From: Aciduliprofundum sp. MAR08-339
GTDB lineage: Archaea > Thermoplasmatota > Thermoplasmata > Thermoplasmatales > Aciduliprofundaceae
Direction: 5' to 3'
DNA length: 64,000 bases
Assembly (NCBI RefSeq): GCF_000327505.1
Contig: NC_019942.1
Span: 620,001 to 684,000 of the forward strand
Shown here: positions 7,824 to 45,921 of the stretch, one piece after another
How the letters are laid out: each line of letters opens with the position of its first letter
Position numbering within the stretch: the first letter of the stretch is position 1
Made by a program: the position numbers and the translations under genes
Notes under the pieces: generated by a model
What the model was told of the DNA's origin: nothing
The model's database searches: none
Seen by the model: only the letters and a program-made list of their open reading frames with translations

Positions 7824-8156
7824 TCAAACTAATTTTTTGAATTTCAAAGCAATACCCTTACCCTGCTTTACAACCTTGCAAAGCACCCTGATTCGCTGAC
7901 CTTGATACAGGGAAAGGGGAGCGTGAATAAGTGTAAGTTCTCTCCTTCCATCGCTTATAACGTATGTTCTATGAGTACTATCCATGCTCAAATAAATGCC
8001 CCTCTGGAGCGGTGATGAAGAATCCACAATTATATAATTCTTGAGTCGATCTTCTTTTATGGGATAAATCGTCTCCACAAAACCCTCTGTGATTATCCAT
8101 GTGCCAATATATTTTGCAGAAATTTGAGAGAGAGGGAGAAATTTTACCCTTCTCAT
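7824..8156 (-). CDS. Conserved-looking hypothetical protein, possible OB-fold
   Basis: A 110-residue basic, beta-rich protein without membrane segments. The run of short strands (GTWIITEGFVETIYP, YIIVDSS, QRIRVLCKVV) would suit an OB-fold nucleic-acid-binding protein, but I do not recognise a family. Its ATG overlaps the AMP phosphorylase stop (ATGA), so it belongs to that operon. Its own stop lies back-to-back with the stop of the converging metal-binding-protein gene, with no bases between. Confidence 0.6.
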   Translation of the reverse strand: MRRVKFLPLSQISAKYIGTWIITEGFVETIYPIKEDRLKNYIIVDSSSPLQRGIYLSMDSTHRTYVISDGRRELTLIHAPLSLYQGQRIRVLCKVVKQGKGIALKFKKLV

Positions 8157-9670
8157 TTTTTGTAGGATGGAATACGCTCCAGCAGCATTCCCTCAATTTT
8201 TAGGGGTTTTAACATTTTGGCTAGTTTAACTGCTTCTTCCAGTTTGGCCTTGGAATCCGCATAGATCACATACAGTACTTCTCCCTTTTCAGTTTTCTCA
8301 CTCTTTTTCCTGTTGAGCAATATTCCTGCACCCTTGTCCTTTGGGGCTCCTGCAGTTCTTGCAATCTTCACCAGCGCTTTATTTGAGACTATTGAGATGT
8401 ATCCGTCTTCCGGTGAATGTATTTCTGCTTTGTATTTGCCTATGGGGACATCCTCGCTCTTTTCAATTCCCCTTGAACCCTGGGCATTGATGATTTCAAG
8501 AAACTTCTCCCTTGCCTTTCCACTTTTCAAAACATTTTTTGCCATTGCCTTTCCCTCTCCCCTCTCTGCCACATTTCCAAGTTCAAGGAGCATGCCCGCA
8601 ATGTCCGTTGCCTTTTCAATGAGCGAGTTACTTACATTTTTCCCTTCAAGGGCCTGCATCGCCTCACGGGCCTCAAGGGCTGGGCCAATGGCACGGCCAA
8701 TTGGCTGTCCACCGTAGGTCACGGCTGCCTCAATGGTTATGCCTAACCTCTCCCCAAGTTCTATGAAATCCATGGCGTATTTTCTTGCGGTCTTCTCGTC
8801 AGGCACTTTAGTTTCTGGACCCATTGGAATGTCAAGAACCATGTAATTTGCGCCCACAGCCTTCTTTTTTGCCATCACGCTTGCTAAAACCTGAGAATGC
8901 GGGTCGATTCCCAGTGGATATTCAACCTTCACAATCTTATCGTCTGCAGGTGCAAGATTAACCGCGCCGCCCCATGTGAGCGTGGCTCCAACCTCGTCTA
9001 CTATTCTCCTTATATCCTTTACACTAAGTTTAACATTTGTAAGGACTTCCATTAGATCCGCCGTGCCTGCGGCACTGCTTATGGCCCTTGATGAGGTTTT
9101 GGGTATTTTCAATCCCATGCTGGCCGCTATGGGTACAGCTATGGGTGCATACTTATTTCCGGGTACTCCTCCTATGCTGTGAACATCAAACACTGTGTAT
9201 TCAAAATCAATTGTTTCGCCTGTTTCCACCATCGCCTTTGTCATCCACTCGGTCTCATCCATGTCCATGCCACGAATCTGAATCGCCGTTACATAGGATG
9301 CCAGTTCAATGTTTGATAGACTATCATCCACAATGTCTCTCACGATCTGATATATCTCATCCTTTGTGAGTTTTTCACCGGAGATCTTTTTCTTTATATA
9401 ATCCACACTCATGGGTCTCACAGTTGGAGCGATGTTCACCTTATCTCCATTTTTTACGCTTAATTTCTCACTGATCTCAACGAACATCCCTATCTCTCCC
9501 CTTTTAATCATACTTTCAGAAATGTTCACTATGGCCGTTGTGACAGTGCCCCTCCTTGTGACCTTAACCCTGTCCTGTGGGTGGAGCCCAAGTTCCTTTG
9601 CATCTTCCTCGTTCAGTATGATCTCCAATCCTCCAACCTCAACATCAATCCTCTTTACCTTCAATTCCAA
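8153..9670 (-). CDS. AMP phosphorylase (archaeal thymidine phosphorylase-like)
   Basis: A 505-residue enzyme of the nucleoside phosphorylase II family that converts AMP plus phosphate to adenine and ribose-1,5-bisphosphate. About 85 N-terminal residues form the archaeal extension (MELKVKRIDVEVGG), which distinguishes AMP phosphorylases from bacterial thymidine phosphorylases. The core contains DVHSIGGVPGNKYAPI and LTWGGAVNLAPADD. The start is TTG 9670: no in-frame ATG fits, and a very strong GGAGGTGATGA ribosome site ends five bases before it. It overlaps the upstream R15P isomerase gene by 26 bases, placing two successive enzymes of the AMP pathway in one operon. Confidence 0.92.
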   Translation of the reverse strand: MELKVKRIDVEVGGLEIILNEEDAKELGLHPQDRVKVTRRGTVTTAIVNISESMIKRGEIGMFVEISEKLSVKNGDKVNIAPTVRPMSVDYIKKKISGEKLTKDEIYQIVRDIVDDSLSNIELASYVTAIQIRGMDMDETEWMTKAMVETGETIDFEYTVFDVHSIGGVPGNKYAPIAVPIAASMGLKIPKTSSRAISSAAGTADLMEVLTNVKLSVKDIRRIVDEVGATLTWGGAVNLAPADDKIVKVEYPLGIDPHSQVLASVMAKKKAVGANYMVLDIPMGPETKVPDEKTARKYAMDFIELGERLGITIEAAVTYGGQPIGRAIGPALEAREAMQALEGKNVSNSLIEKATDIAGMLLELGNVAERGEGKAMAKNVLKSGKAREKFLEIINAQGSRGIEKSEDVPIGKYKAEIHSPEDGYISIVSNKALVKIARTAGAPKDKGAGILLNRKKSEKTEKGEVLYVIYADSKAKLEEAVKLAKMLKPLKIEGMLLERIPSYKK

Positions 9671-40648: not shown

Positions 40649-41464
40649 ATGGAACTCTGGTTCTCGGAAATGCATACAGATAACGTTAAACTTGGGTTCA
40701 GGATAAGGAGGGAGATTGAGCATGTTCGCTCTCCCTACCAGGATATTCATATTTTTGAGACGTATGACTACGGAAAGCTTCTAGTTATAGATGGCACGGT
40801 TCAACTCACGGAAAGGGATGAATTTGTGTACCACGAGATGATCGTGCACCCACCCATGCTCACCCACCCTGATCCAAAGAGGATACTCATAATTGGTGGA
40901 GGTGACGGTGGCTCAGCCAGGGAGGTCCTGAAACACGATCCTGACGAGGTTCACGTGGTTGAGATAGATGAAGAGGTTGTGAGATTATCGAGAAAACACC
41001 TTCCATTTGTTGCAAGGAGTTACGATGATCCAAGGGTTCACATTCACATAGAGGACGGAATTGAATTTGCGAAGAGGGAAAAGAATTTTGATGTTATAAT
41101 AATAGATTCCACGGATCCTGTTGGCCCAGCAGAAAAACTGTTTTCTGGAGAGTTTTACAGATACCTGAGAAACACCCTGGCTCCAGGAGGAATAATTTCT
41201 CAGCAGTGCGGTACACCAGTTTACCACCCTGAGGAGGTTTGTAATGTGCATGCCCTGTTATCTAGGGAGTTCAGGTATGTGCGTCTGTATTTTGCCTATA
41301 TTCCCACTTATCCATCGGGAATGTGGGCCTTTTCAATTGCCAGTGATGAGCCAATAAGGATAAGGAGAAAGATGGATTTTCCGACACGGTATTTTAACGA
41401 GGAAATTTATAGTTCATCCATGGTCCTTCCAAATTTTGTAAAGGAAAAGTGCCACCAGGAGTAA
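40649..41464 (+). CDS. speE: Polyamine aminopropyltransferase (spermidine synthase)
   Basis: A 271-residue class I methyltransferase-fold enzyme that moves aminopropyl groups from decarboxylated S-adenosylmethionine to a diamine or polyamine. The binding loop ILIIGGGDGGSAREVLKH and the catalytic aspartate region DVIIIDSTDPVGPA are intact. ATG 40649 is preferred over the upstream in-frame codon at 40592 because a TATA element stands 25 bases before it. Polyamines stabilise nucleic acids in thermophiles. The 3' end overlaps a convergent gene by 51 bases. Confidence 0.93.
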   Translation: MELWFSEMHTDNVKLGFRIRREIEHVRSPYQDIHIFETYDYGKLLVIDGTVQLTERDEFVYHEMIVHPPMLTHPDPKRILIIGGGDGGSAREVLKHDPDEVHVVEIDEEVVRLSRKHLPFVARSYDDPRVHIHIEDGIEFAKREKNFDVIIIDSTDPVGPAEKLFSGEFYRYLRNTLAPGGIISQQCGTPVYHPEEVCNVHALLSREFRYVRLYFAYIPTYPSGMWAFSIASDEPIRIRRKMDFPTRYFNEEIYSSSMVLPNFVKEKCHQE

Positions 41465-43234
41465 TATTATGGGGATACGCAGGTCAAAATGGGAATCGGG
41501 CAAGTTAACCACCCTGCATATTGATCTTTCGTTGCCCCATAAATCTTCCACCCTTATCTCTATTTTATGTGTGCCAGAAGCAACGTTGATGGTGAATACC
41601 GGTGCTTTTCCCCTATGTACCAGATTTCCGTCAACGTAAACGTAATAGGTCAGATCTTTCCCTATGCTCTTGGATAGATCAAAGTGGATCCTGTTGCCCT
41701 GAATATTCATTTTCACAACAGGAAAGGGCTTAAACTCTCCCTTCCAGTCGTAGTTGAATATTTTTGTTAGGTAGGATACTGCTCTCTCGCTTCTTATAAT
41801 AAGGGAAAATTCCCTGTTGTTCTCCATTGAAGACACGCCAAAATTCATGCTTCCCACGAGCACCTCAGAGTCTCCTATTATGAGTTTGGCATGTAGGTAT
41901 CTGATGTAATGCTCCATGCCGTCAAATCTTTTTACATTCTCACCTGTATAGGGATGTTGAACAAGAGCAAGGGTTGTTTTGTTACTGATCTCCTTCCATA
42001 TATCCTTTCCGATGTAAAGCGCTTCAATCTTCAGATCTCTCTGTGAATCCACAAAATTTTTGAACGAGTACGGAGCAAAATCCGGAGCTATCACCGGTTC
42101 TAGGGAAGCCGTGATGTTTATACTCTCAAACACAACCCTACGAAGTTCATATTCGTATTTGAAACTCGCATCTGTTGAGTTGAACTCCCCATCGTATATC
42201 TTTATATCCTGAACGTTCTTGTCATCATCCTTAAAGATTTTGGAGACATAATATGCAAACTCCTCATCTCTAACTATGATTCCATAGCCACGATTTCCGC
42301 AGGGTGAGAGGGCCGAGTGCCCGAAGTTCTCCGTTGATATCAATACTGCACTTCCATCCCTCACTATGAATTTGGCGTGAAGAAATCTGTATCTATCGTA
42401 TATTCCATCCTTTGGGTCGTTTACCATGAAACCGATGTTTGCACCGTTCTTCCAGAGTTCATTTACGATGTATTTTTCTTCGTCACTCATGCCTCCTATG
42501 GGATTTCCATCAAGGAGAATGCTTACCCCCACACCCTCTCTTAATTTTTTAAGGAGAACGCCTTCAAATGGTAAGCTATCCATCGTGTAGGATTCAATCA
42601 TAATACTCCTCTTGGCAGAATTTAAAAATCTCAGGACCTCCCTCCATTTATCTGGATAGGGAAAGATCTCTATTGATGCTTTGAACTCCCTTTTTTTGAA
42701 GTCACTCTGACCTATCACGTGATAGTTGCTCCAGTCTCTAGATGTGTTTGTATCATCCATGCCTATCCTTCTGAGAATGTGGCCCGTGCTCACGTGAACG
42801 GATGCTCCGTTCCATCCGGGTCCAGAGTATCTCGAATCACCGTAAACAAGCAGGTCTATCATTCTCGATTTGTAGAATAGTGCAACCTCGTCTCCCCTAT
42901 TGGCCAGAGCAAAACGGTCAACGTAGGTAAAATTTGGATAAAATCCAAAAAATTTGAAAAAAGATGTTGAATTCTGGGCTATGTAAATTTTGGAATGCGG
43001 AGCGATACTCCCATTTAAGGGGATTCTTCCCTCAAAATCGCTGATGTAATATCCAGAGAGTTCAACTCTCTGTGAGAGGGGATTTAAAATGCAGACGTAT
43101 TCCATATTTGTGCCTGGGTAGGGTGATGGACTAACTTCATAGATCAGCAGGTGCTGGTGCTCAACCGGGGCAGAATTTGCATAGGTAAGTGGGAGAATGA
43201 GGAGAACCAGAAGAATGGCTACTTTACTCTCCAT
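41414..43234 (-). CDS. Secreted phospholipase D-like protein with lamin-tail domain
   Basis: A 606-residue extracellular protein. Signal peptide (VAILLVLLILPLTYANSA); a lamin-tail-like domain (LLIYEVSPSPYPGTNMEYVC, about 28-130); two phospholipase D modules with HKD motifs HAKFIVRDGS (about 286) and HAKLIIGDS (about 448), each followed by an asparagine/phenylalanine segment; an Ig-like domain; and a C-terminal helix (IPIILLLVALFLYKIW). Both active sites appear complete. PLD proteins with lamin-tail domains can be nucleases or phosphodiesterases. Its start overlaps the upstream membrane gene by 16 bases. Confidence 0.88.
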   Translation of the reverse strand: MESKVAILLVLLILPLTYANSAPVEHQHLLIYEVSPSPYPGTNMEYVCILNPLSQRVELSGYYISDFEGRIPLNGSIAPHSKIYIAQNSTSFFKFFGFYPNFTYVDRFALANRGDEVALFYKSRMIDLLVYGDSRYSGPGWNGASVHVSTGHILRRIGMDDTNTSRDWSNYHVIGQSDFKKREFKASIEIFPYPDKWREVLRFLNSAKRSIMIESYTMDSLPFEGVLLKKLREGVGVSILLDGNPIGGMSDEEKYIVNELWKNGANIGFMVNDPKDGIYDRYRFLHAKFIVRDGSAVLISTENFGHSALSPCGNRGYGIIVRDEEFAYYVSKIFKDDDKNVQDIKIYDGEFNSTDASFKYEYELRRVVFESINITASLEPVIAPDFAPYSFKNFVDSQRDLKIEALYIGKDIWKEISNKTTLALVQHPYTGENVKRFDGMEHYIRYLHAKLIIGDSEVLVGSMNFGVSSMENNREFSLIIRSERAVSYLTKIFNYDWKGEFKPFPVVKMNIQGNRIHFDLSKSIGKDLTYYVYVDGNLVHRGKAPVFTINVASGTHKIEIRVEDLWGNERSICRVVNLPDSHFDLRIPIILLLVALFLYKIWKDHG

Positions 43235-43629
43235 TTTCTCTTCGTTTCTTCCAATCTCTCCTGGTACTTCTTGCCCAATTTGTAGGATATTTCCTCAAGT
43301 TCGCGAAGATTGTTCACGAACTCCCTCTTGCTCTCAGAATCTATATACTCCTCAAATTTCAGTCGCTTTCTGAGGGTATCGAATGTGAACCAGCCACCTG
43401 CTATCACAAATATTATGCCCAGAACCAAGAGCCAGTAGTTCCAGTTTCCCGCCCATGCGGTTAGATAGTCCATTCCCGGATCCTTCTGGATAAATTTTGT
43501 GGAGGCCAGAACCCAGTATCCGCTTGTTATGAGTAGGTATATCCCAATTACAAATAGCGCGAGGCTTATGTGCAGTATGTATTCCCTCAACTTGCTCCAT
43601 GACATTGGGAGAGGATATTCTTTATTCAT
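43219..43629 (-). CDS. Two-helix membrane protein with coiled-coil tail
   Basis: A 136-residue protein: two membrane helices (ILHISLALFVIGIYLLITSG and YWLLVLGIIFVIAGGWFTF) then a charged coiled-coil of about 50 residues. ATG 43629 is supported by an AAATTTTTATTT element about 25 bases upstream; an in-frame codon at 43677 lies above the promoter. It forms an operon with the secreted PLD gene. Function unknown. Confidence 0.65.
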   Translation of the reverse strand: MNKEYPLPMSWSKLREYILHISLALFVIGIYLLITSGYWVLASTKFIQKDPGMDYLTAWAGNWNYWLLVLGIIFVIAGGWFTFDTLRKRLKFEEYIDSESKREFVNNLRELEEISYKLGKKYQERLEETKRKWRVK

Positions 43630-43657
43630 AAAGTATTTTCGCTTGAAAAATAAAAAT

Positions 43658-44341
43658 TTAGAAGGAGAAACTCTCACCCGGTTTTAGGACAACCAATTTT
43701 ATTCCATCTCTTTCCAGATCTTCTCGCATTTCCTCTGGATTTGCAGTTATTGGGGGCCATGTATTGTAGTGCATTGGAATCACGTACTTTGGTTTGATCC
43801 ACCTTGCCGCTATGGCTGCGAGTTTCGGATCCATGGTGAACAATCCACCCACCGGGAGAAGTGCAACATCGGGTTTATAGATTTCACCTATTATCTTCAT
43901 ATCTCCAAAGAGGCCTGTATCTCCTGCGTGGTAAACCTTCTTTCCATTTATCTCAATTATGAATCCGGCAGGTATGCCTCCATCGTGGGTGAAATTGCTC
44001 TCCGTTATGCCAGAGGAATGAAGTGCAGGAACCATGCTCAGTTTTATTCCATCTTGCTCGTATGTGCCACTGAAATTCATTCCAATGGCATTGGCACCCT
44101 TTGATGCAATGTACTGCGCCACCTCGTAGATTGCCACAACAGGCACGTTCTTGCGCTTGGATATGAACACGGCATCTCCAAGGTGATCCCCATGCCCGTG
44201 TGTCACGGCTATGATGTCACAATCTATTTCATCAGGCTTAACGGGAGCCATATCGTTTCCCGTTATAAACGGGTCCACAAGCACTCTCTTTCCATTCTCC
44301 TCGATTAGGAATGCTGAATGTCCCAACCATGTAATCTTCAT
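43658..44341 (-). CDS. UPF0173 metallo-beta-lactamase-fold hydrolase
   Basis: A 227-residue metal-dependent hydrolase. It opens MKITWLGHSAFLIE, has the zinc motif THGHGDHLGDA, a further histidine in YHAGDTGLFGD and one in IPMHYNTWPPI, as in the UPF0173 family. Substrate unknown. ATG 44341 follows GGTGAT; a GTG nine bases upstream is less well placed. Confidence 0.9.
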   Translation of the reverse strand: MKITWLGHSAFLIEENGKRVLVDPFITGNDMAPVKPDEIDCDIIAVTHGHGDHLGDAVFISKRKNVPVVAIYEVAQYIASKGANAIGMNFSGTYEQDGIKLSMVPALHSSGITESNFTHDGGIPAGFIIEINGKKVYHAGDTGLFGDMKIIGEIYKPDVALLPVGGLFTMDPKLAAIAARWIKPKYVIPMHYNTWPPITANPEEMREDLERDGIKLVVLKPGESFSF

Positions 44342-44390
44342 ACCCATCACCTCGCCCCAAATATCTCATCATTGAATTTTAAACTTTCTC

Positions 44391-45383
44391 TCACGCAAGC
44401 CTCTCCGGGCAAATATTCCTTCTGGAGCAGTGGATGCATTTTCCAACCTTGTGGTGATTCCTGTGAACCTCTCCCGTTTCAAGGGCTCTTCTCATCTCTT
44501 CAACCTTTTCAAGCATAATATTTCTCAGATCCTCCTCATACTCAATTTTGTATACCACAGGTCCATATTTTAGAAGCCCATAGGGAGGAGTTTTGTAGTT
44601 CTCCTCAACGAGCACCATGTATGCTGTTAACTGCATTATGTGGGAGAACAAAGGGCCACGGGGTACGCGCCCAGTTTTGATCTCCACGGGTATGTAGTCA
44701 TCGCCTTTTTTAATGAGTAAATCCGGTCTTCCCCATATCTTGTATTTTTCGCTCTTAAGAATTGGGCTCTGCTGTAGGTCGTCCACGTATATTATCTCCC
44801 CGTCTGGGAGTTTGAGTTTTTTCTTTAGTTCATTGTACTGGAACTCGCTTTTTAGGGAGATGTACAGAAAGTACGTGGCGAATATGAGCCACAGAAGGGA
44901 GAGCACCTCCATCACATATCCAAGGGCGAAGTTTGGGGGTAGAACGAAAGTCACGGCGAATATGGAGAATATCGTTGCCGCCCCTGAAGCTATGACCATA
45001 ACCCTCTCCACATCCTTCCTTTCCCAGAGTAAAACGTATTTCTCAAATTTCCAGAGGAGGTATAGGGAAAATAGAAGCCATACGATGGCAAGAATCATGA
45101 ATATCCTGCTTAGTATGGGGGAGGAGTAGAGAAACGATATGCCAACAAGTGCAATGAGTGTTGCTCCAATGGAGTAGTATATTGCCATGCTTTCAGAATC
45201 CTTCATTTTGGAGTAACTCTTCTTCATTTTCTTTGCCTCTTCACTTATTTCCCTGTGCTTTCTGACCCCCTCATTTTCCGTGTGCTTCTCCTTCCTGCTC
45301 AGCCACCAGCTAAGTGGGCAGTACGAATATTTCTCAATGTCTCCCGCAGAGATGTAATCCACGATGCAAATATGCACGGACAT
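44391..45383 (-). CDS. Cas4-like PD-(D/E)XK nuclease with four inserted membrane helices
   Basis: A 330-residue RecB/Cas4-family protein. The Fe-S cysteines are C22, C316, C319 and C325. Nuclease residues are H43 (GVRKHRE), D221 (GRPD), E234 and K236 (PVEIKTG) and the QxxxY motif at 251-255. All match Cas4. Between H43 and D221 lie four hydrophobic helices (about 68-88, 90-112, 128-148, 152-176), absent from ordinary Cas4. So the nuclease should face the cytosol while held in the membrane. No cas gene or CRISPR array is near. A divergent membrane-protein gene shares its promoter region. Confidence 0.87.
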   Translation of the reverse strand: MSVHICIVDYISAGDIEKYSYCPLSWWLSRKEKHTENEGVRKHREISEEAKKMKKSYSKMKDSESMAIYYSIGATLIALVGISFLYSSPILSRIFMILAIVWLLFSLYLLWKFEKYVLLWERKDVERVMVIASGAATIFSIFAVTFVLPPNFALGYVMEVLSLLWLIFATYFLYISLKSEFQYNELKKKLKLPDGEIIYVDDLQQSPILKSEKYKIWGRPDLLIKKGDDYIPVEIKTGRVPRGPLFSHIMQLTAYMVLVEENYKTPPYGLLKYGPVVYKIEYEEDLRNIMLEKVEEMRRALETGEVHRNHHKVGKCIHCSRRNICPERLA

Positions 45384-45441
45384 TATTTAATTCCTTCGCA
45401 AACGGAAAACGTTAATATAGTTCATTGAAATCTGAATAGGT
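45384..45441. promoter_or_regulatory. Shared promoter region, nuclease / membrane protein
   Basis: A 58-base gap between divergent starts. GTTAATATAG at 45412-45421 can serve as TATA box for the rightward gene at 45442; its reverse is placed about 32 bases from the leftward start at 45383, so both genes may share the element. Confidence 0.45.
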
Positions 45442-45921
45442 ATGGGAAAATACACGCTATTGCTTGTCTTGGGTCTCGCTTTAATTCTTTCAGCCTCAAT
45501 AACCCTGGGGGCCCTTCACATTTGGGCTTCAGGTAATTCTCACAGAATTGTTATCTCTGGAATTTCGATGGAGAATATCCCCTTGAATCTTAGGGAGAGA
45601 GAGCATGTGCTCATTTCCTCGTATTCCAATTTTTCCTACGAGGTTCTGAATTCAGCGGGAGTAGTTAAAACTGCAGGGAATGCGAGCAATGCCGATATAA
45701 TCCTTGATCCCGGTAATTACACTATAAAAATAGAAAATCCAAATGATTTCAAAATAAATGTATCCATAGCCATGGTTGGGGAGGCCGAACTCCAAAAATT
45801 TGCTCTGCTTAGCTACGTATCCATTGCCATATTTTTCGTAGGAGCGCTATTGACCATTATCTCCTTGGGGCTTCTTCTCTGGGAGAGAAAAAAGGAGGAA
45901 AAAATCTACACGAGGTATTAG
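45442..45921 (+). CDS. Membrane protein with extracellular domain
   Basis: A 159-residue protein with an N-terminal helix (LLLVLGLALILSASITLGAL), an extracellular domain of about 90 residues with several sequons, a C-terminal helix (SYVSIAIFFVGALLTIISLG) and a basic tail. Family not recognised. Its 3' end overlaps the convergent iorB gene by four bases. Confidence 0.65.
   Translation: MGKYTLLLVLGLALILSASITLGALHIWASGNSHRIVISGISMENIPLNLREREHVLISSYSNFSYEVLNSAGVVKTAGNASNADIILDPGNYTIKIENPNDFKINVSIAMVGEAELQKFALLSYVSIAIFFVGALLTIISLGLLLWERKKEEKIYTRY

Follow-up and report, generated by a model that had tools for sequence, protein, structure and literature searches.

Cas4 encoded beside cas1/cas2 (CAS-Cas4) is represented by the structures 7mi4, 8d3l and 4ic1 (SSO0001), and Cas4 encoded outside CRISPR loci (solo-Cas4; COG1468/DUF83) is common in archaea and has no known function. 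In the main text of Hudaiberdiev et al. (2017; PMC5704561), archaeal solo-Cas4 is mostly vertically inherited, its presence has no functional tie to that of CAS-Cas4, and in some DPANN archaea it lies beside restriction-modification genes. The same main text mentions neither Thermoplasmata nor membrane helices or split genes; Thermoplasmatota sequences may be listed in its supplements simply as solo-Cas4. Open-literature searches for membrane, transmembrane or split Cas4 returned nothing relevant. Dna2, MGME1 and ACE1 have a related PD-(D/E)XK exonuclease fold, with other partners and another set of domains. We know of no membrane insertion between the same motifs in these three enzymes.

The gene described here lies in a 64,000-nucleotide stretch (the window) of the chromosome of Aciduliprofundum sp. 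MAR08-339 (NC_019942.1, positions 620,001 to 684,000). Its product (the query) shares with solo-Cas4 the Cas4 motifs, the four cysteines, the lack of cas neighbors and broad retention in archaea, but in the membrane form the core is interrupted by two to eight transmembrane (TM) helices or split into two genes. The nuclease core and Fe-S cysteines are also common to the query and CAS-Cas4, which provided the best structural matches; CAS-Cas4 lies beside cas1/cas2 and was TM-free in the controls, whereas the query is neither. UvrD-Cas4 and other PF12705 (RecB-like) nucleases have the C-terminal PF12705 match in common with the query, which carries a membrane module instead of a fused helicase; one protein of this type is encoded elsewhere in the query genome. 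The usual Cas4 is soluble with an uninterrupted core, a property that does not define the family; the query core is interrupted by four TM segments.

A Cas4-Family Nuclease with Predicted Membrane Helices

The query gene was divided into three parts (positions are those of the window):

44391-45383, minus strand: predicted membrane-inserted Cas4-family nuclease, 330 aa (TIGR00372, PF12705, PF01930; AlphaFold, AF2; Foldseek)
45195-45383, minus strand: N-terminal half, residues 1-63, with C22 (45318-45320) and a GxxxH motif containing H43 (45255-45257) (conservation)
44814-45194, minus strand: predicted membrane module, residues 64-190, two homologous hairpins (hydropathy, AF2 helices, hhalign)
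44391-44813, minus strand: C-terminal catalytic half, residues 191-330, with D221, E234, K236, Q251, Y255, C316, C319 and C325 (alignment, Pfam/NCBIfam)

Against the 330-aa protein TIGR00372 scored 89.8 bits (cut-off 65) and PF01930 (DUF83) scored 29.4 (cut-off 22.7; E = 1e-6), and the RecB-type PF12705 matched at 4.5e-15. These Pfam and NCBIfam matches all lay in the C-terminal half, at residues 203-325. The active-site set comprised H43, D221, E234-x-K236 and Q251-xxx-Y255, and the cysteines were arranged as in the Cas4 family, with one N-terminal (C22) and three C-terminal (C316, C319, C325). In an alignment of 44 full-length homologues, reaching down to 29% identity, C22, C316, C319, C325, D221, K236 and Y255 were invariant. 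H43 was present in 42 of the 44 homologues (Gln in the other two), and position 234 was Glu in 42 and Asp in two.

The AF2 model of the query (mean pLDDT 87.7, pTM 0.70) retained the Cas4 nuclease core, from which the TM helices emerged as a stalk without breaking it. The best PDB matches of the model in Foldseek were Cas4 (E = 3.9e-4, probability 1.00), namely the Cas4 of Cas4-Cas1-Cas2 complexes and SSO0001, followed by Dna2, MGME1 and ACE1. By profile score, active site, four cysteines and predicted fold, the query belongs to the Cas4 family.

TM helices were called throughout by hydropathy. Four hydrophobic segments (mean Kyte-Doolittle 1.9-2.2) lay between H43 and D221:

TM1, query residues 67-85
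TM2, query residues 90-108
TM3, query residues 130-148
TM4, query residues 157-175

All segments scoring at least 1.6 in the 44 homologues fell between the positions of H43 and D221 and none fell outside; 38 sequences had four segments and six had three. Among 1000 shuffled versions of the query, one had four such segments. The AF2 helices of this region covered residues 38-83, 89-111, 122-147 and 152-190 and were followed by the strands of the nuclease core, with both H43 and TM1 borne on helix 38-83. The predicted module is a duplicated hairpin, since hhalign found TM1-TM2 and TM3-TM4 to be homologous (probability 98.2, E = 3e-13). A Trp was conserved in each returning helix (W102 and W165, 91% each).

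Mean Lys plus Arg counts were 5.3 before TM1, 0.55 in the loop between TM1 and TM2, 4.4 between TM2 and TM3, 0.9 between TM3 and TM4 and 4.0 after TM4. This pattern fits the established positive-inside rule, so that both nuclease halves are predicted to face the cytosol. A preliminary description of this DNA, made from the letters alone, had listed the Cas4/RecB landmarks (C22, H43, D221, E234-x-K236, QxxxY and C316/C319/C325), all of which were found in the reading frame. It had also placed a membrane segment of four helices between H43 and D221, which hydropathy, the AF2 model and the 44 homologues confirmed, with the nuclease core intact in the predicted structure despite the helices. The tether to the inner face of the membrane that it had proposed agrees with the charge pattern.

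Distribution and Layouts in Thermoplasmatota

In an initial search, most genomes of the query's family had the gene, at 62-80% identity, and other members of the order had full-length relatives at 32-42%. When named genomes were scanned, 57 loci were recovered under the titles Aciduliprofundum, DHVE2 group, Thermoplasmata, Methanomassiliicoccales or unclassified Euryarchaeota. At E <= 1e-6, a profile search matched 190 of 293 Thermoplasmatota genomes, representing 97 of 138 genera. The catalytic residues and the helices were kept together across the phylum, which answers the question of homologues with the same insertion that the preliminary description had raised. Several genera of family f6 lacked the gene in the phylum profile search; it is thus dispensable there.

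The survey of layouts took in another 27 families (codes f8-f45), with 39 loci. A hydrophobic stretch lay between the GxxxH and GxPD...ExK motifs wherever the frame held both. Two helices in one chain were found in f17, f23, f24, f26, f31, f35, f40 and f45. Four helices were found in f8-f14, f16, f18, f19, f33 and f39, and likewise in f1, f3 and f4. Eight helices were found in f22, f38 and f42, and the longer f28 and f36 proteins gave three or four helix calls. An even number of helices would leave both nuclease halves on the same side of the membrane.

Some members deviated from these layouts. Two f3 members (L017 and L018) had Gln instead of the motif His, and one f6 copy (L029) had lost the E and K of ExK; these are possibly inactive copies. 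In an f37 copy (L161:5142-6887), the Cas4 part was followed by a TRAM domain at the C-terminus (PF01938, 1.1e-10). The 899-aa (f26) and 497-aa (f40) frames were rejected as fusions, their N-terminal parts resembling an upstream extension of the frame from an internal start.

Split Forms in Archaea and Bacteria

In f6 and f27 the gene was split at the membrane point into two adjacent ORFs, as were the second copies carried by f3 and f4. The archaeal N-half (~82-100 aa) carried the cysteine and the GxxxH motif and ended in a helix. The C-half (~155-195 aa) was the catalytic half and had an N-terminal helix in most cases; in some f27 and f3 copies this helix was cut by the chosen start codon.

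Bacterial sampling covered plasmid, phage and viral collections. On Bacillus subtilis plasmids, an 81-aa N-half annotated as hypothetical and ending in a helix was followed by a 162-aa C-half that was annotated "Dna2/Cas4" and began with one. The two halves matched TIGR00372 at positions 1-44 and 61-179, respectively, and are therefore complementary parts of one Cas4 model. In the plasmids of Paludisphaera and Singulisphaera the two genes of the pair overlapped by 4 bases. On plasmids of Marinobacter, Microbulbifer, Aeromonas and Thioalkalivibrio, a CFI-box-CTERM protein was paired with a one-helix PD-(D/E)XK C-half. The CFI-box-CTERM proteins held the cysteine and GxxxH motif in their N-terminal part, and this N-half was without a clear TM segment. 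In Thioalkalivibrio, a DUF4326 gene lay between the N-half and the C-half. The bacterial split forms were located as follows:

L208:1185-1430 and 1435-1923: split, predicted membrane-anchored Cas4 halves, B. subtilis and Planctomycetota plasmids
L210:1091-1366 and 1363-1872: as above
L212:7624-7890 and 7887-8396: as above
L215:313-1247: CFI-box-CTERM N-half, gammaproteobacterial plasmids
L219:299-1223: as L215
L221:5513-6429: as L215
L223:7576-8510: as L215
L224:3197-4447: as L215

A further C-half, on a plasmid of Planctomyces sp. SH-PL62 (L213:8837-9336), was frameshifted beside an IS701 transposase and is an apparent relic.

Sequencing error was rejected as the source of the split, which recurred across several bacterial phyla as well as in four f6 genera, f27 and the second copies of f3 and f4; the 4-base overlaps in some pairs and the DUF4326 gene between the Thioalkalivibrio halves also argue against it. 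A phage or viral origin was likewise rejected, relatives being absent from the viral contigs and phage records searched. Annotation overlooks half of the split enzyme, the N-half being called hypothetical or a CFI-box protein and only the C-half being named as Cas4 or PD-(D/E)XK nuclease.

Active-site residues were conserved in the bacterial split forms too. This conservation, together with that in nearly every phylum member, makes it very improbable that the query is a former nuclease that now acts as a structural or regulatory membrane protein, binding DNA or a cluster without cutting, even though H43 or ExK is occasionally lost (L017, L018, L029) and the gene is dispensable in several genera.

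Phylogeny of Split and Fused Forms

A tree of 56 proteins was built with the membrane region left out and rooted on CAS-Cas4. CAS-Cas4 was set apart (84/77) and the fused forms made up one group (94/98), with two changes sufficing between split and fused states. The tree suggests, and we hold this loosely, an older split form and a single fusion in Thermoplasmatota, the number of hairpins changing later. Support for the root was only moderate, and the branch of the CAS-Cas4 from the query genome was very long.

Gene Neighborhoods

The neighbors of the query in the window were:

45384-45441: divergent intergenic region, 58 bp
45442-45921, plus strand: small, predicted membrane-anchored protein, divergent; no family match above cut-off
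43658-44350, minus strand: metallo-beta-lactamase-fold (MBL) hydrolase, 40 bp downstream of the query (PF13483, 3.5e-30)
43219-43677, minus strand: DUF3198 membrane protein, overlapping the MBL-fold hydrolase gene (PF11433, 3.6e-24)
41414-43234, minus strand: protein with two PLD-type domains (PF13091, 5.6e-26) and a lamin-tail-like domain (PF00932, 4.5e-8, just below cut-off), predicted to be secreted and anchored at its C-terminus (PLD/LTD)

The small divergent gene had been described as sharing its promoter region with the query. It does lie 58 bp away on the opposite strand, but it was a neighbor only in this genus. The MBL-fold hydrolase, DUF3198 and PLD/LTD genes formed a same-strand run after the query; as a fixed operon this run was rejected, being kept in the genus only. 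The PLD domains of the 41414-43234 protein also matched the PADLOC DrmC profiles (best 1.8e-20).

The PLD/LTD gene raises the possibility of DNA uptake or use of environmental DNA, in which the surface PLD/LTD protein would cut outside the cell and the membrane Cas4 would degrade or trim the incoming strand. PLD/LTD relatives also occurred near the Cas4-type gene in f14, f16 and f31, in differing arrangements. Other f1 genera had their PLD/LTD genes elsewhere, most other families were without such a neighbor, and PLD domains may equally act on lipids. A profile search for ComEC (PF03772) gave no match in the 99% complete query genome, while the same search matched 10 of 14 control genomes. ComEC-linked uptake was rejected on this ground, and uptake as a whole is considered improbable.

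No neighbor common to the whole phylum was found at the loci compared; accordingly, no partner is firmly tied to the membrane Cas4. In four f6 genera the split pair directly followed SMC and kleisin-like genes and preceded a tyrosyl-tRNA synthetase gene in a tight same-strand run (L046-L049), the kleisin-like assignment being based on weak PF02616 and PF04824 matches. A TPD-family gene (PF14811) was directly upstream in f8-f12 members, overlapping in some (L145, L146, L148, L151). On the B. subtilis plasmid a DinG/YoaA-type helicase was encoded just upstream of the split pair. These neighbors (SMC-kleisin, TPD family and DinG-type helicase) suggest a link to DNA metabolism but do not single out a pathway.

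Some surroundings of the split relatives would also suit a defense nuclease acting at the membrane to destroy foreign DNA on entry, whether injected by viruses or conjugated. Split relatives were on conjugative or mobilizable plasmids, and DNA methyltransferase genes were near the split pair in Paludisphaera, Singulisphaera and Thioalkalivibrio; a membrane site suits interception of entering DNA, and the main text of PMC5704561 places some DPANN solo-Cas4 genes beside restriction-modification genes. Defense is nevertheless unlikely as the role of the query, although it deserves consideration. The Thermoplasmatota gene is chromosomal, broadly kept in the phylum and set in ordinary neighborhoods rather than defense islands; no defense gene lay next to the query in the window, and PADLOC matches reflected shared Cas4 and PD-(D/E)XK homology only.

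Relation to CRISPR Adaptation

A Cas1 gene with its own adjacent, TM-free Cas4 was located ~711 kb from the query in the same genome, which makes a role for the query in CRISPR adaptation unlikely. The genome further has a RecB-like gene of 255 aa, and a 926-aa open frame includes a Cas4-like domain. None of the CAS-Cas4 controls, from four plasmids and the query genome, had such a TM segment. The query locus is chromosomal, with no cas or mobile-element neighbors at the loci viewed, as in solo-Cas4, and it is not beside cas1/cas2, as CAS-Cas4 is. Its placement away from any CRISPR locus in the preliminary description was right as far as cas genes go. A membrane-bound CRISPR adaptation partner, supplying prespacers from entering DNA, could draw on the Cas4 fold and active site and on the Cas1 gene in the genome. 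Such a role is scarcely credible given the separate TM-free Cas4 beside Cas1 and the functionally untied presence of solo-Cas4 and CAS-Cas4 (main text of PMC5704561).

Discussion

The reading that we prefer, at a probability of roughly one half, is that the query is a membrane-anchored Fe-S PD-(D/E)XK DNA nuclease of the Cas4 family, most likely serving in housekeeping DNA processing apart from CRISPR adaptation. A membrane-tethered, CRISPR-unlinked Fe-S nuclease of Cas4 type was the central claim of the preliminary description, and the homologues, the predicted structure and the charge pattern support it.

In this reading, the start of the chain, which carries the first Fe-S cysteine and the H43 motif, would be cytosolic. 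One long helix would then run into the membrane, followed by two hairpins, and a second long helix would return to the catalytic half, which holds D221, E234, K236 and the three remaining cysteines. On the inner membrane face the halves would come together to form a single active site and a single cluster. Relatives would do the same with one, two or four hairpins, or as separate half-proteins that must meet at the membrane. The job would most likely be the trimming of single-stranded DNA ends or flaps near the membrane, in repair, replication or segregation intermediates.

The enzyme family is known, but a core interrupted by membrane segments, and split into two genes in relatives, is a layout new to it. 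Solo-Cas4 of archaea has had no known function, and the membrane build and split core of this phylum-wide branch offer handles on where it works, which halves must meet and which genes it neighbors. For the branch as a whole, in archaea and bacteria, we tentatively propose a history that we regard as possible but short of probable. The older form would have been two membrane-anchored half-enzymes, an active Fe-S nuclease only once they had met; one fusion in Thermoplasmatota would have joined them through a hairpin, which was later duplicated to give four and eight helices. If this is true, the nuclease would be turned on by assembly at the membrane and thereby at a selected location, for example a site of DNA transfer or chromosome segregation.
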